Shown: piece by piece, positions 11,853 through 56,059 of the stretch | Layout of the letters: each line of letters opens with the position of its first letter | How positions within the stretch are numbered: position 1 is the first letter of the stretch | Origin: Ruminiclostridium cellulolyticum H10 | Lineage (GTDB): Bacteria; Bacillota; Clostridia; Acetivibrionales; DSM-1351 | Length of the DNA: 64,000 bases | NCBI RefSeq assembly: GCF_000022065.1 | Contig: NC_011898.1 | Span: forward strand, 1,696,001-1,760,000 | Direction of reading: 5' to 3' | Made by a program: the position numbers and the translations under genes | Notes under the pieces: model-generated | What the model saw: only the letters and a program-made list of their open reading frames with translations | Databases searched by the model: none | Told to the model about the DNA's origin: nothing

Positions 11853-12009
11853 AAATGTTCACATTTGTCTTGATTTTTTTCTTTGTCTAATATAAAATGA
11901 TTTTGTCGAAATACTATTGATTATGTTTTTAAAAAATTTTATATAAAGATATTTTCCAATTAATTGATTTTTTATATTTTTAATATAAAATTAAATTATG
12001 GAAAAGTAT

Positions 12010-12076
12010 CCCGTATATTTTCGGTAATATGGTCCGACAGTTTCTACGAAGCCGCCGTAAATGGCTTTGCTACGGG
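12010..12076 (+). promoter_or_regulatory. Guanine riboswitch aptamer
   Basis: P1 is CCCGTA (12010-12015) with TACGGG (12071-12076). P2 is TCGG/CCGA closing the TAATATGG loop. The J2/3 segment is the invariant GTTTCTAC. P3 is AAGCC/GGCTT closing GCCGTAAAT. The loop sequences allow the family's loop-loop GG-CC pairs. The specificity base just before the 3' P1 strand is C (12070), which selects guanine or hypoxanthine rather than adenine. It lies upstream of xpt, a classic target. Confidence 0.93.
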
Positions 12077-12114
12077 TGTTCATCTTAGACATAGCAGTTT
12101 GTCGTAAGATTTTG

Positions 12115-43137: not shown

Positions 43138-45084
43138 CTAATTTTCATACTCTATAAACAACTCAGGATTATGTCTTTTCCCCATCTTGTGTCTTGCTTT
43201 GCGATTGTCCACAGTATCAAATATTATTGAAAAGTCGTAGTCAGCTGGGTATAACTCGCTGGCTGGTACGTGTAGTTTTATTCTTTTGTGGGAAAGAAGT
43301 TTTTTTTGTCCTTTAATCTGAACACCTATTTCACCATGTTCGTTGGCTTTTTGATAAACCAGCCCTATTTCTTTCTGAGGAAAGACCATAACACTATCTC
43401 CAATGTTAAATCTGCTGCTTCTGTTTTGTGGTACATTTTTCTTTGGGTTTTCCTTTATAAGAACAGGTGCATTTAAGTCAGGTGGAATTCCGGACTGGCT
43501 GTCCGCTCCAATAGGGCTTAACAAGGATTCATTATTCTCTGAATTAACCTTAGTAGGGTACTCTTTATAGGCGGCATCATGAGCAAGCCTGAGAAGATGT
43601 GGGGGAAAGCCAAGCCTTTTTGCAATATACAGGGCACAGCTTTCCCCGGCCTCACCAATTTCAAGTTTATACAAAGGTTTCAAACTTTCCTTGTCAAAAG
43701 CCATTCTGGCATTTACAAGACCGGGTGTTTTTTTGGCATAGTCCTTTATTTCAGGATAATGAGTAGTTGCTACAAACAGGCAGCCCTTGTTTTTCAAATC
43801 TTCCAGAATTGCGGTAGCTATACCCATACCTTCTGCCGGGTCGGTTCCAGAGCCTACTTCGTCAAGCAGGACAAGGCTTTCTCCCGTGGATTGCCTTAGA
43901 ATATCATTTATGGTTGTTATGTGTGCCGAAAAAGTTGACAAGTTCTCGGTAATACTCTGTCCGTCTCCGATATCACATAAAATCATATTATGCATTGAAA
44001 ATTCACTTCCCATGGCGGCGGGAACATGAAGTCCGCTTTGTGCCATGATTGAAAGCAACCCTACAGTTTTAAGGGCCACTGTTTTTCCTCCTGTATTTGG
44101 CCCAGTTATAACAACTCCTCTTATACCACTACCGATTTCAAAGTCAAGAGGAACACATTCCGATTGATTAAGAAGAGGGTGGCGTCCGGCTTTGATAACA
44201 ATCCTGCGGTCCATATGAATATCAGCTTCACAGGCCTTCATCTGAACTGAAAGCTTAGCCTTAGCAAAAACTGCATCAAGAGTTTCCATTATATCTACGT
44301 TAGTTTTAAATACAGCTGAATGTTCATCCACTAATGAGGTCAGAGTATATAAGATTTTTCTTTCTTCATTTTCTTCTTCCACTGTAAGGGCGGATATTTC
44401 CTCTTGAAGTCTGCGTACAGCGGAAGGCTCAATAAAATAAGTTCCTCCTGTGGCGGAGGTTTCTATCAGCGAGCCGACTACCATGTTCTTATATTCTTTT
44501 CTTACGGGCAGTACGAAATGACCATTTCTCATTGAAACAAAACTGTCCGCAAACCATTCTTTTTTACTCCTTAATATACTTTCAAGCTTGGTACGGACTT
44601 GTTGGTGGGAATTATCCTTCCTTCTTCGTATATCTTTCAGCTTTGGTGAAGCAGAATCATCAACCCGTCCATTTCTGATTGAGTGTTCAATTTCTTCACA
44701 GAGGTCATTAAGTGCATCTATTGAGCTTCCATAATAAGCAATATCATTCTCAAGGCTCTCGGTCCTTTTGAGATATGATTTCATACGTCTGCAGGCAAGA
44801 AGAAACTGTGAAACCTCTTCTAATTGTTCAGGAACAAGCATTGCACCCTTTGAACAAAGATCAAGAATTCTGTCTAGCTCGTTCATTGAAGAGAGAGGAG
44901 GAGTCCCCAGACTTTCAAGAATTCTTTTTGCGTTGGTAGTTTCCTTCATTCTTCTTCTGCATTCTCCCTCCTTCAGAAAAGGTTGAAGCATCGAAAGATT
45001 CTCTTTAGCTCTTTGAGAAACGGTATTTTCCATAAGCATTTCAATTATTTTGTTAAATTCAAGTGTTACGGCATATTTATTCAT
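43138..45084 (-). CDS. MutS2-like ATPase lacking the Smr domain
   Basis: A 648-aa MutS-family ABC ATPase. The N-terminal core and clamp (about 1-290) begin like MutS2 (KYAVTLEFNKIIEMLMENTVSQRAKE). The ATPase has Walker A GPNTGGKT (328-335), the ST motif NLSTFSAHI (381-389), Walker B LVLLDEVGSGTDP (404-416) and the TTHYPEIKDYA segment. A KOW-like beta domain (about 558-603) follows a short linker. Full-length MutS2 is about 780 aa and ends in an Smr nuclease; here the protein stops about 45 residues after the KOW-like domain, without the DLRG or HG.G Smr motifs. AGGAGG precedes the ATG. The 5' leader suggests attenuation. MutS2/RqcU of Bacillus splits collided ribosomes; that this one does so is inference. 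Confidence 0.85.
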   Translation of the reverse strand: MNKYAVTLEFNKIIEMLMENTVSQRAKENLSMLQPFLKEGECRRRMKETTNAKRILESLGTPPLSSMNELDRILDLCSKGAMLVPEQLEEVSQFLLACRRMKSYLKRTESLENDIAYYGSSIDALNDLCEEIEHSIRNGRVDDSASPKLKDIRRRKDNSHQQVRTKLESILRSKKEWFADSFVSMRNGHFVLPVRKEYKNMVVGSLIETSATGGTYFIEPSAVRRLQEEISALTVEEENEERKILYTLTSLVDEHSAVFKTNVDIMETLDAVFAKAKLSVQMKACEADIHMDRRIVIKAGRHPLLNQSECVPLDFEIGSGIRGVVITGPNTGGKTVALKTVGLLSIMAQSGLHVPAAMGSEFSMHNMILCDIGDGQSITENLSTFSAHITTINDILRQSTGESLVLLDEVGSGTDPAEGMGIATAILEDLKNKGCLFVATTHYPEIKDYAKKTPGLVNARMAFDKESLKPLYKLEIGEAGESCALYIAKRLGFPPHLLRLAHDAAYKEYPTKVNSENNESLLSPIGADSQSGIPPDLNAPVLIKENPKKNVPQNRSSRFNIGDSVMVFPQKEIGLVYQKANEHGEIGVQIKGQKKLLSHKRIKLHVPASELYPADYDFSIIFDTVDNRKARHKMGKRHNPELFIEYEN

Positions 45085-45187
45085 ATTTACCCTCCTGTTT
45101 TAGCAGGCAGAGAGGTGTGTCCAATCTGCGTGAAATTTGATTATTAATTAAGTGGACACAAATCTTGTATATACGTTCTCCAGAACA

Positions 45188-45225
45188 AACAAAAAAGCGT
45201 AACAGGAACAAACCCGTCACGCTTT
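45188..45225 (-). terminator. Leader terminator (attenuator) of the MutS2-like gene
   Basis: On the minus strand AAAGCGTGACGGG pairs with CCTGTTACGCTTT around TTTGTT, giving 13 consecutive pairs including two G-U, then TTTTTTG. On the plus strand two A-C mismatches would arise, so it is a minus-strand RNA. It lies about 100 bases before the start codon, inside the leader. Confidence 0.8.
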
Positions 45226-45410
45226 GCTAAAATCATTTGAATACGGCTAATAACTATATATCAGTAAAAATGGTTTTGAAGCATATCTGTAATGTACTGA
45301 ACGTACGAAGCAGGTGTCCAACGATACCTAAACACAGGTATCGGTAATAAAAAGGTACACTAAATAAACAGGATTACGACCTGTTTAAAAAAAGAACCTT
45401 TTCCAACTAT

Positions 45411-45446
45411 TTAGTTGTTAATCACCTTTACAGATAATACCGACAT
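45411..45446 (-). CDS. 11-residue leader peptide upstream of the MutS2-like gene
   Basis: The frame MSVLSVKVINN-stop, with AAGGAAGG five bases before its ATG, starts about 26 bases after the predicted transcription start. The last codons (AAC AAC TAA) lie inside the 5' arm of a hairpin, so a ribosome stalled or paused here would change downstream folding. Translation of so short a frame is inferred from its ribosome binding site and position only. Confidence 0.5.
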   Translation of the reverse strand: MSVLSVKVINN

Positions 45447-45478
45447 CAAAACCTTCCTTTCATGTTGAAATTTATTTC

Positions 45479-45508
45479 AGAATAGCATATGCCATTTGGA
45501 GTTGTCAA
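45479..45508 (-). promoter_or_regulatory. Promoter of the MutS2-like leader
   Basis: On the minus strand, TTGACA (45508-45503) and TATTCT (45484-45479) are separated by 18 bases. The predicted start is near 45472, downstream of the tRNA terminator. Confidence 0.75.
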
Positions 45509-45575
45509 GGTAACAAACCTGCAATGTTAAACTTGAATTTCAGAAAATTATTTAACATCGAATAACTTAATAAAT

Positions 45576-45607: not shown

Positions 45608-45683
45608 TGGTGACCCATCCGCGACTCGAACGCGGGACACCTTGATTAAAAGTCAAGTGCTCTGCCAACTGAGCTAATGGGTC
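45608..45683 (-). tRNA. tRNA-Lys (anticodon UUU)
   Basis: Acceptor GACCCAT/ATGGGTC, discriminator A and encoded CCA. The stem CTTGA/TCAAG closes CTTTTAA, giving UUU. The T-arm GTTCGAGTC is normal. It is second in a two-tRNA unit, three bases after tRNA-Gln. Confidence 0.96.
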
Positions 45684-45686
45684 AAA

Positions 45687-45763
45687 TGGCTGGGATGGCT
45701 GGACTCGAACCAACGAAATGCCAGAGTCAAAGTCTGGTGCCTTACCGGCTTGGCTACATCCCA
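45687..45763 (-). tRNA. tRNA-Gln (anticodon UUG)
   Basis: Acceptor TGGGATG/CATCCCA with the U1-A72 pair typical of tRNA-Gln, discriminator G and encoded CCA. The stem CCAGA/TCTGG closes CTTTGAC, giving UUG. It is transcribed ahead of tRNA-Lys. Confidence 0.96.
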
Positions 45764-45832: not shown

Positions 45833-47452
45833 TTATTTTTGAACTTTAAAATCCTGAGTAGCTATATCAATAAGTTTAAGGTCCTTGTTTCTTTCTTCTG
45901 CCATACGAATAGACCACTCGTTTTCAAATAAAATGGAATTTCTCTCCTCTTTATCCTGAACAATAATAGATGTACTTGGCAAGTTTAATTTTCTCGGATC
46001 CAATCCTTCATTCTCAATCCACCTTGCGTGTCTGAATGGGAGATTCTGAATACGAAGGGATACACCATACTCGTTCTTTAGCCTGTATTCAAGTACTTCA
46101 AACTGTAAAGCACCTACAACTCCGATTATCAGTGCTTCTATACCTATATCAATCTGCTTGAATACCTGTATGGCACCTTCCTCTGACAATTGCTCTATTC
46201 CCTTGATAAACTGCTTTCGCTTCATTGTATCCGCAGGGGAAACTCTTGCAAAGAATTCGGCAGGGAAGATAGGAATACTTTCGAACCTTACATTGTTGTT
46301 TCCTTCATATAAAGTATCTCCCAATTTGAAAATGCCTGGATCAAACAAACCAATGATGTCACCGGGATACGCCTCTTCTACGATTGTTCTTTCCTGAGCC
46401 ATAAATTGCTGAGGCTGTGAAAGACGTACATCCTTTCCTGCATTTACATGTCTTACGGTCATACCTTTTGTAAATTTCCCGGAGCAAACTCTTAAAAAAG
46501 CAAGTCTGTCTCTATGAGTAGGATTCATGTTTGCCTGAATTTTAAATATAAAACCTGAGAATTTGTTATTTTCCGGGTCGATTTCGCCTTCGGAAGTTTC
46601 TTTGATTCCGGGTGAAGGAGCCAGTTCCAGAAAGGCTTCAAGGAACGGTTGAACACCGAAATTGGTCATGGCACTTCCGAAGAACATAGGAGTCAGCTCG
46701 CCGCAGCGGATTTTTTCCCTATCAAATTCCTCCCCTGCCATATCCAACAGTTCTATATCTTCACAAAGCTTGTCATGGTAATGACTTCCCAAAAGGTCTG
46801 TAAATATCGTATCATCAACTTTACCCACTGTAGATGATACTTGGGTTTGTCCATGTGCACCGCCGCCAAAAAGTTCTATTTGTGAAAGATTTCTATTATA
46901 AATACCTTTAAAATCGCCTTCGGTACCTATTGGCCAGTTCATAGGATATGAACGAATTCCGAGAACCTGTTCGATTTCTTCCATCAGTTCAAAGGGGTCC
47001 TTGCTGGCACGATCCATTTTGTTTACAAATGTAAATATGGGAATACCCCTCATCTTACATACATGAAAAAGCTTTATTGTTTGTGCCTCCACACCTTTCG
47101 CACCGTCTATGAGCATGACTGCACTATCCGCAGCAACAAGAGTTCTGTAGGTATCCTCACTGAAATCCTGGTGGCCGGGTGTATCCAATATATTGATACA
47201 ATAGTCATTATATTCAAACTGCATTACACTGGAGGTAACGGATATTCCTCTTTGCTTCTCAATTTCCATCCAGTCGGACACAGCATATTTATTGGCTTTT
47301 CTTGCCTTGACAGAACCAGCAAGTCTTATAGCTCCTCCATAAAGGAGAAGTTTTTCGGTCAAAGTGGTTTTTCCTGCATCAGGGTGAGAAATAATAGCAA
47401 AAGTTTTTCTACGGGATACTTCTTTTTTAATTTCACTTTTTAAATCAGGCAT
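45833..47452 (-). CDS. prfC: Peptide chain release factor 3
   Basis: A 539-aa translational GTPase that recycles RF1/RF2 after termination. G-domain motifs: G1 SHPDAGKTT (about 22-30), G2 region QRGISVTSSV, G3 DTPGHQDFSEDTYRTL, G4 FVNKMDR. The N-terminal RRKTFAIISHPDAGKTTLTEKLLLYGGAIRLAGSV-type sequence separates RF3 from EF-G. Domains II and III follow. The ATG at 47452 lies behind a GAGAGG-like site. It is transcribed toward the two tRNAs but about 70 bases apart. Confidence 0.96.
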   Translation of the reverse strand: MPDLKSEIKKEVSRRKTFAIISHPDAGKTTLTEKLLLYGGAIRLAGSVKARKANKYAVSDWMEIEKQRGISVTSSVMQFEYNDYCINILDTPGHQDFSEDTYRTLVAADSAVMLIDGAKGVEAQTIKLFHVCKMRGIPIFTFVNKMDRASKDPFELMEEIEQVLGIRSYPMNWPIGTEGDFKGIYNRNLSQIELFGGGAHGQTQVSSTVGKVDDTIFTDLLGSHYHDKLCEDIELLDMAGEEFDREKIRCGELTPMFFGSAMTNFGVQPFLEAFLELAPSPGIKETSEGEIDPENNKFSGFIFKIQANMNPTHRDRLAFLRVCSGKFTKGMTVRHVNAGKDVRLSQPQQFMAQERTIVEEAYPGDIIGLFDPGIFKLGDTLYEGNNNVRFESIPIFPAEFFARVSPADTMKRKQFIKGIEQLSEEGAIQVFKQIDIGIEALIIGVVGALQFEVLEYRLKNEYGVSLRIQNLPFRHARWIENEGLDPRKLNLPSTSIIVQDKEERNSILFENEWSIRMAEERNKDLKLIDIATQDFKVQK

Positions 47453-55774: not shown

Positions 55775-56059
55775 ATATATGTGGTTTTGAAATTACAATC
55801 CAAAAGCAATGATGGAGAAAAGTAAGCGAGAAACGGATATTCCAGAGAGAAGGTATCAATGGCTGAAAGTACCTTTATTATACAGCTTGCCCAAGTTCCC
55901 TCCGGAGCTGCAGCTTTGAACCGTGTTATGATATTTTTCATATGTAGAGGCTGCCGGTTAAAACCGTTATATTTACAAAGAGTCCGGATATTCTATTCGG
56001 AAATCTGGGTGGTACCGCGAAGATAGCCTTCGTCCCTTTATTGGGGCGGAGGTTTTTTT
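55775..56059 (+). promoter_or_regulatory. T-box riboswitch of pheST
   Basis: The T-box sequence TGGGTGGTACCGCG is at 56006-56019. The terminator follows: CCTTCGTCCC pairs with GGGGCGGAGG, then TTTTTTT (56027-56059). Upstream, a long stem I region contains the AGAGAG element and a specifier-loop candidate TTTGAACCG; a UUU (Phe) codon at 55915-55917 fits the downstream genes. A promoter is likely from TTGATT (55741-55746) and TATAAT (55763-55768). Uncharged tRNA-Phe would stabilise the antiterminator. Confidence 0.92.

Follow-up and report, generated by a model that had tools for sequence, protein, structure and literature searches.

The window analyzed here, a 64,000-nucleotide stretch spanning positions 1,696,001–1,760,000 of the single-contig genome (4,068,724 bp) of Ruminiclostridium cellulolyticum H10, carries on its minus strand a release factor 3 (RF3) gene, two tRNA genes, a promoter, a leader, and a 648-codon gene, in that order. 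The leader and the gene behind it comprise the following features, numbered within the window:

45479–45508, minus strand: promoter TTGACA-18-TATTCT with an extended -10 TG (consensus scan, 10 of 12 matches)
about 45452–45458, minus strand: leader-frame Shine-Dalgarno AGGAAGG, which also pairs with the 3′ part of segment 2 (sequence; P1 duplex)
45411–45446, minus strand: leader frame MSVLSVKVINN, then stop; segment 1, putative anti-antiterminator (conserved in relatives; synonymous fraction)
about 45404–45417, minus strand: hairpin CAACU-AAAU-AGUUG over the last codons and stop (fold, consensus structure)
about 45365–45387, minus strand: nested hairpin in P1, AAACAGG/CCUGUUU (fold)
about 45322–45343, minus strand: nested hairpin in P1, CGAUACCU/AGGUAUCG (fold)
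45267–45316, minus strand: segment 2, putative antiterminator (permutation tests over 38 leaders; window-copy pairs)
45194–45225, minus strand: intrinsic terminator of 13 pairs with a U tract, its 5′ arm and loop being the target of segment 2
45090–45096, minus strand: main-gene Shine-Dalgarno (sequence)
43138–45084, minus strand: Smr-less MutS2 paralog of 648 aa, with a MutS core and ATPase, a KOW-like region, and a conserved C-tail

The neighbor of the locus across the two tRNA genes (45690–45763 and 45611–45683) is prfC, encoding release factor 3 (45833–47452, minus strand); in two related loci (L010 and L011), an RF3 gene lies on the opposite side. Elsewhere in the window, Rfam identified a T-box leader (55800–56040, plus strand) and a purine riboswitch aptamer (11991–12092, plus strand).

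The layout originally predicted from sequence alone, namely the promoter, ribosome binding site, 11-codon frame, end-of-frame hairpin, nested hairpins, and 13-bp terminator, was confirmed in every part. The terminator, predicted to lie about 100 bases before the gene, is 107 nt from its ATG (45084), and the claim that its G-U pairs mark a minus-strand RNA also held, because these pairs become A-C mismatches if read on the opposite strand. The frame reads ATG TCG GTA TTA TCT GTA AAG GTG ATT AAC AAC TAA, and nearly all of 27 leaders retain the pairs of the hairpin at its end, some of them through compensatory changes. Segment 2 can form P1 with the Shine-Dalgarno and frame or, alternatively, pair with the loop and 5′ arm of the terminator; in the window copy, a GUAC hairpin interrupts it. 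The leader folded at −110.9 kcal/mol, vs −81.6 ± 5.7 for shuffled sequences (z = −5.2; 0 of 100 shuffles as stable). For the leader, Rfam gave no family at the gathering threshold in the window, and a relaxed threshold applied to ten loci gave no plausible match. Promoter-like sites are by themselves weak evidence (22 observed vs 11.3 expected by chance in 4 kb, both strands); conservation is strong evidence, and the TTGAC and TATGCTATTNTG boxes occupy the same position in other Ruminiclostridium-group leaders.

The description of the gene as MutS2-like held in part: the product is an Smr-less MutS2 paralog, and the canonical MutS2 is a separate 804-aa frame elsewhere in the genome (40% identity). 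The paralog matched TIGR01069 (MutS2) at 572.7 bits (cut-off 400) over residues 2–506 only, the match stopping at profile position 512 of 790, and a Pfam scan returned MutS_V only. It met the MutS core/ATPase criterion for canonical MutS2 and did not meet the C-terminal Smr criterion, no Smr domain being found by the Pfam scan and the C-terminal alignment showing a different tail; members of the paralog family end in a KOW-like region followed by ELYPxDYDFSIIFDTVxNRKARHxMxKRH in place of Smr. An assignment to the KamC reactivase ATPase (NF052383) was rejected at 234.1 bits, below the cut-off of 300. The best matches of the predicted model (mean pLDDT 85.5) were MutS2 structures, including the Bacillus subtilis disome complex 7qv3 (37% identity and TM 0.72/0.78 against chain w). 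In a phylogenetic tree, the canonical MutS2 copies formed one clade (0.98) with the paralogs apart from it; the main paralog clade was supported at 1.0, and its join with a Listeria/Enterococcus/Acetoanaerobium group was weak (0.34).

Canonical MutS2 is present in almost every genome of the order (38 of 40), and the distribution of the paralog is patchy, with its C-tail profile matching 18 of 58 genomes. At least 584 relatives of the paralog were confirmed; the family consists of proteins of ∼650 residues that, where annotated, carry only the generic names MutS2 or MutS. Searches of plasmids and phages for a mobile close copy recovered distant relatives only, and several of these were located on plasmids of very large size or within contigs resembling host DNA. 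Smr-less MutS2 copies were also observed in Cytobacillus, Paenibacillus, Acetoanaerobium, and contigs labelled Listeria and Enterococcus phage (L156–L160), four of them with a recognizable upstream short frame (MLGVVLN, MSVAGI, MSVVGI, and MSVIVLL); the contigs that carry the Listeria and Enterococcus copies were deposited as phage but are unverified and may be host DNA.

The leader parts occur in the same order upstream of relatives whose protein identity ranges between 88% and about 40%, and conservation of the frame, segment 2, and the terminator extends across Clostridia and into some Bacilli. From the confirmed relatives, 80 loci were retained by the species-genome scan, which together with further genome-search loci gave 97 loci with ≥200 nt upstream. 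A short frame with a Shine-Dalgarno was assigned in 86 of these, 8 of them doubtful, and was not found in the other 11; the terminator was detected automatically in most relatives. The leader thus survived the sequence-based part of the refutation originally proposed for it, namely a lack of conservation of frame and terminator in relatives. Selection on the frame was assessed in 26 distinct aligned frames, where the synonymous fraction of single-base codon changes was 0.41 in frame, vs 0.11 and 0.14 in the other two, and no sequence had an internal stop in frame, vs 23 and 8 in the others. On this basis, the leader frame is under coding selection, an inference from sequence alone without translation data.

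The leader peptides include an 11–12-residue type (MSV[LS]SV[KMT]V..N, LLNVSVMVIFN, MSVLSVKEVCAN) and a short type (MIEVVLN, MLEVVLNK, MSESVHN, MSVSL). The long type has an almost invariant Ser-Val at positions 5–6, Val is frequent at positions 3, 6, and 8, and the short-leader sequences vary. Ser occupies position 2 in 46 of the 72 unique peptides, and 86% of unique peptides contain [AST]-V, compared with 49% when shuffled; because frames were chosen partly by eye and with a first-residue rule, counts of residues close to the start carry a bias. The criterion of a known drug-arrest motif or a described short leader was not met: MSVLSVKVINN lacks RLR or any other +x+ motif, and the [AST]-V enrichment is only suggestive. 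Short-type leaders were searched by pattern instead of covariance model. The frame-tail pattern GTTCTTAACTAA with its complement 65–95 nt on was found in 2 of 299 phylum genomes (control pattern, 0), and both matches precede MutS2-like genes, with frames MLGVVLN and MSVSVLN.

Both alternative pairings of segment 2 were supported across the family. The P1 duplex, in which the Shine-Dalgarno and frame pair with segment 2 (consensus CCUUACAGACUGCUUCAAUAACCAU), had a mean of −23.3 kcal/mol with cognate partners vs −17.9 ± 0.57 with permuted partners (0/20,000; 38 leaders), and segment 2 with its cognate terminator 5′ arm and loop had a mean of −12.7 vs −9.95 ± 0.41 (0/20,000; 38 leaders). Loci with wrong or doubtful automatic placement of segment 2 were left out of the permutation test, and kinship among leaders remains uncorrected. 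In five sequences, the third base of codon 6 has changed together with its segment-2 partner, and the pair is retained. In a footprint simulation, transcripts were truncated before the terminator 3′ arm and the ribosome footprint was masked; the predicted pairing of the terminator arm with the segment-2 side had a mean of 0.19 in the free transcript, which rose to 0.63 when codon 3 was in the P site and to 0.51 for codon 6. The codon-6 footprint raised the predicted antiterminator pairing in 33 of 43 leaders and lowered it in none (Wilcoxon, 1.6e-11); footprints upstream of the frame, at the stop, or beyond left it near background.

The window copy itself is a weaker case, and it failed the simple antiterminator duplex test (z +0.74), which is partly explained by the hairpin-split pairing. 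Its predicted antiterminator pairing was 0.00 in the free transcript and reached 0.43 when codon 2 was in the P site, but codons 3 and 6 gave only 0.06 and 0.00, so that the model predicts a response confined to very early stalls. The pairs formed in the codon-2 case comprise ACCUG (45315–45311) with CGGGU (45216–45212), p about 0.5–0.6, and AUGCUU (45284–45279) with AAGCGU (45224–45219), p about 0.2–0.3, values that vary with the transcript modelled. Two criteria for an attenuator were met by parts already described, a short frame with a ribosome-binding site and an intrinsic terminator between frame and gene, and a third, mutually exclusive anti-antiterminator and antiterminator pairings, was met across the family and is weak in the window copy. 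The original proposal of a translation-sensing layout is supported to this extent, with induction by drugs remaining an inference.

A covariance model of 27 leaders, R1, was used to survey the genes behind the leader, with E < 1e-4 counted as a strong match. Within the order, R1 matched 15 of 18 genomes with the paralog vs 0 of 40 without it (Fisher, 2.7e-11), and no genome had a second match at this threshold. The order, class, and phylum samples together gave 35 such matches, some of which are training-leader loci or species, so that not all are independent. MutS2-like genes follow 27 of the 35, and five precede the ATPase of an ABC-2-type exporter (L123, L129, L131, L169, and L170), which is drrA-like but below cut-off. 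The remaining three comprise a leader, MSVLSVMVVLN, directly before a GNAT acetyltransferase (L165); one before a CD3324-family gene and then an RsgA-like GTPase (L127); and one with the frame MEMSAMVVFN and no recognized gene behind it (L133:1501–1643, E 5.9e-6), possibly a decayed copy. Weaker matches in L171 (E 4.7e-4) and L134 (E 0.019) precede a methyltransferase or methyltransferase fragment; these are short-leader relatives (MSVIL) with a class I SAM methyltransferase that is apparently broken in L134. An exporter lies directly behind the MutS2-like gene in 8 distinct loci and a GNAT gene in three, and in L123 we read a MutS2-like C-tail remnant, KRHDIARKHDPQLVIKTNNEERG followed by a stop, between leader and exporter. 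The remnant and these adjacencies suggest an operon from which different genes have survived.

A second terminator was observed in many relatives (L049:1791–1847, L014:1415–1472, L017:1381–1435, and about 35 more), mostly <200 nt before the gene, with a conserved internal loop, GGAGCAUUC/GGUAUGUC, and covarying outer-stem pairs. Its model, R2, gave strong matches only at loci of this kind, one of them before the exporter in L178, and the window's own genome had no match at E ≤ 0.01. This second terminator is not explained by a stalled-ribosome attenuator and counts against that reading.

The anatomy, conservation, frame selection, alternative pairings, and gene associations were shown by computation, and we consider it likely that the leader attenuates transcription under the control of stalled ribosomes and induces a ribosome-splitting factor, probably as a defence against drugs of the peptidyl-transferase centre. 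Stalling, termination, and readthrough are inferred. In unstressed cells, the 11-codon frame would be translated and the ribosome quickly released, after which the Shine-Dalgarno and codons would pair with segment 2 (P1), the terminator would form, and transcription would end ahead of the gene. A ribosome stalled in the first codons, for example by a peptidyl-transferase-centre drug, would block P1, and segment 2 would then take the terminator 5′ arm and loop, allowing RNA polymerase to read into the gene. In other genomes, the same leader would drive an exporter, acetyltransferase, methyltransferase, or RsgA-like GTPase.

The activity of the protein is likewise inferred, by analogy: the Smr-less MutS2 ATPase would most likely split stalled ribosomes, as MutS2 does, and protect translation like HflXr. 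B. subtilis MutS2 carries out ATPase-dependent splitting of collided ribosomes, and a strain lacking it is hypersensitive to chloramphenicol, tetracycline, and erythromycin (PMC10897456). KOW and SMR mutants of the same protein show only very modest erythromycin sensitivity (PMC10897456), which leaves room for ribosome splitting by a version without Smr; against this, Smr aids the recruitment of MutS2 to collisions, and in its absence the splitting activity may not carry over. The inducer class is also an inference. Some drugs act best with a penultimate Ala and less so with Ser or Thr (PMC8987054), and the [AST]-V context fits such drugs; the short VVLN type does not, which leaves the inducer undecided.

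Several other explanations were weighed. The most serious is a general translation-stress sensor without drug preference, induced by any slow early elongation; it remains possible, as any footprint inside the frame works in the simulation and short-leader sequences are variable, but it does not account for the excess of [AST]-V over shuffled peptides (86% vs 49%) or for the nearly fixed Ser-Val of the long type. An amino-acid-starvation attenuator of the ilv type, in which a Val-rich leader (3 Val in 11 codons) stalls without charged tRNA, would use identical RNA logic and would fit the common Val at positions 3, 6, and 8. We regard it as unlikely, however, given short forms with a single Val codon (MSVSL, MSVIL, MSESVHN) and client genes that encode a ribosome-splitting relative, exporter, GNAT, methyltransferase, or RsgA-like GTPase and include no biosynthesis genes.

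A ligand- or protein-binding riboswitch, with the short frame incidental and the internal loop of the second terminator perhaps acting as sensor, draws support from that conserved loop and covarying stem before the gene in many relatives. It is very unlikely in view of the coding selection on the frame and of the window's genome, where frame and P1 are present and the second-terminator model is unmatched (E ≤ 0.01). Chance, that is, a terminator of the upstream tRNA unit combined with an accidental short frame, could appeal to the two tRNA genes just upstream and to the frequency of promoter-like motifs, but it is all but excluded by conservation that persists in other genera where the tRNAs are absent, by the association seen with the covariance model, and by the statistics of the frame.

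A bolder version of the attenuator reading makes three claims jointly: that a portable SV-type attenuator controls ribosome-drug defence genes across Bacillota, that the Smr-less MutS2 is a new inducible resistance class splitting drug-stalled ribosomes, and that the peptide is tuned to penultimate-Ala/Ser/Thr drugs (phenicols, oxazolidinones, or natural relatives). We lean slightly against this combination. If the attenuator reading is right, ribosome splitting of the MutS2 type would rank beside ABC-F proteins and HflXr among the inducible defences against drugs that target the ribosome, with a range of Clostridia and some Bacilli and related copies in the contigs labelled Listeria and Enterococcus. 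The generically named ∼650-residue family would gain a testable role, and the leader offers a handle on unrecognized resistance genes behind it, having already led to the exporter, acetyltransferase, and methyltransferase.

Among the closest known systems is rli80-hflXr of Listeria monocytogenes (PMC6310831), in which a short frame overlapping an anti-antiterminator is likewise followed by an antiterminator and terminator and a ribosome-splitting client; the window leader differs in its SV-type peptide without an RLR motif and in its unrelated RNA, and the HflX GTPase and MutS2-type ATPase are unrelated proteins. The leaders of ARE ABC-F genes, with peptides such as MIN in vmlR, MR[I/M] in cplR, MAGN in lsaA, and MYLIFM in msrD (PMC10201436, PMC10314930, PMC9226507), are also short frames that sense drug-stalled ribosomes, with premature termination and a resistance gene behind, and mefA-msrD similarly pairs efflux with a ribosome factor; the window leader differs from these in peptide and RNA, in the long-range P1 that covers its Shine-Dalgarno, and in its client, which is not an ABC-F protein. 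The uORFC-6-1 motif before hflX in Bacillales (PMC8632094) shares a structured RNA, a conserved short frame, and a ribosome-rescue gene, whereas its RLR peptide and hflX are its own, and "mutS" is absent from the main text of that paper. Canonical MutS2 of B. subtilis (PMC10897456; PDB 7qv3, 8qpp) has the same MutS core, clamp, and ATPase, followed by a KOW-like region, in contrast to which the paralog lacks Smr and has a new conserved C-tail; the former is a near-universal single copy, the latter an accessory copy behind a putative attenuator. The original statement that no leader was known for a MutS2 homolog held in the literature searched, which did not extend to Term-seq and supplementary listings, where one is not excluded. 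The attenuation logic is already known from rli80-hflXr and the ARE ABC-F leaders, from which the present system differs in its peptide, its RNA, and its client gene.
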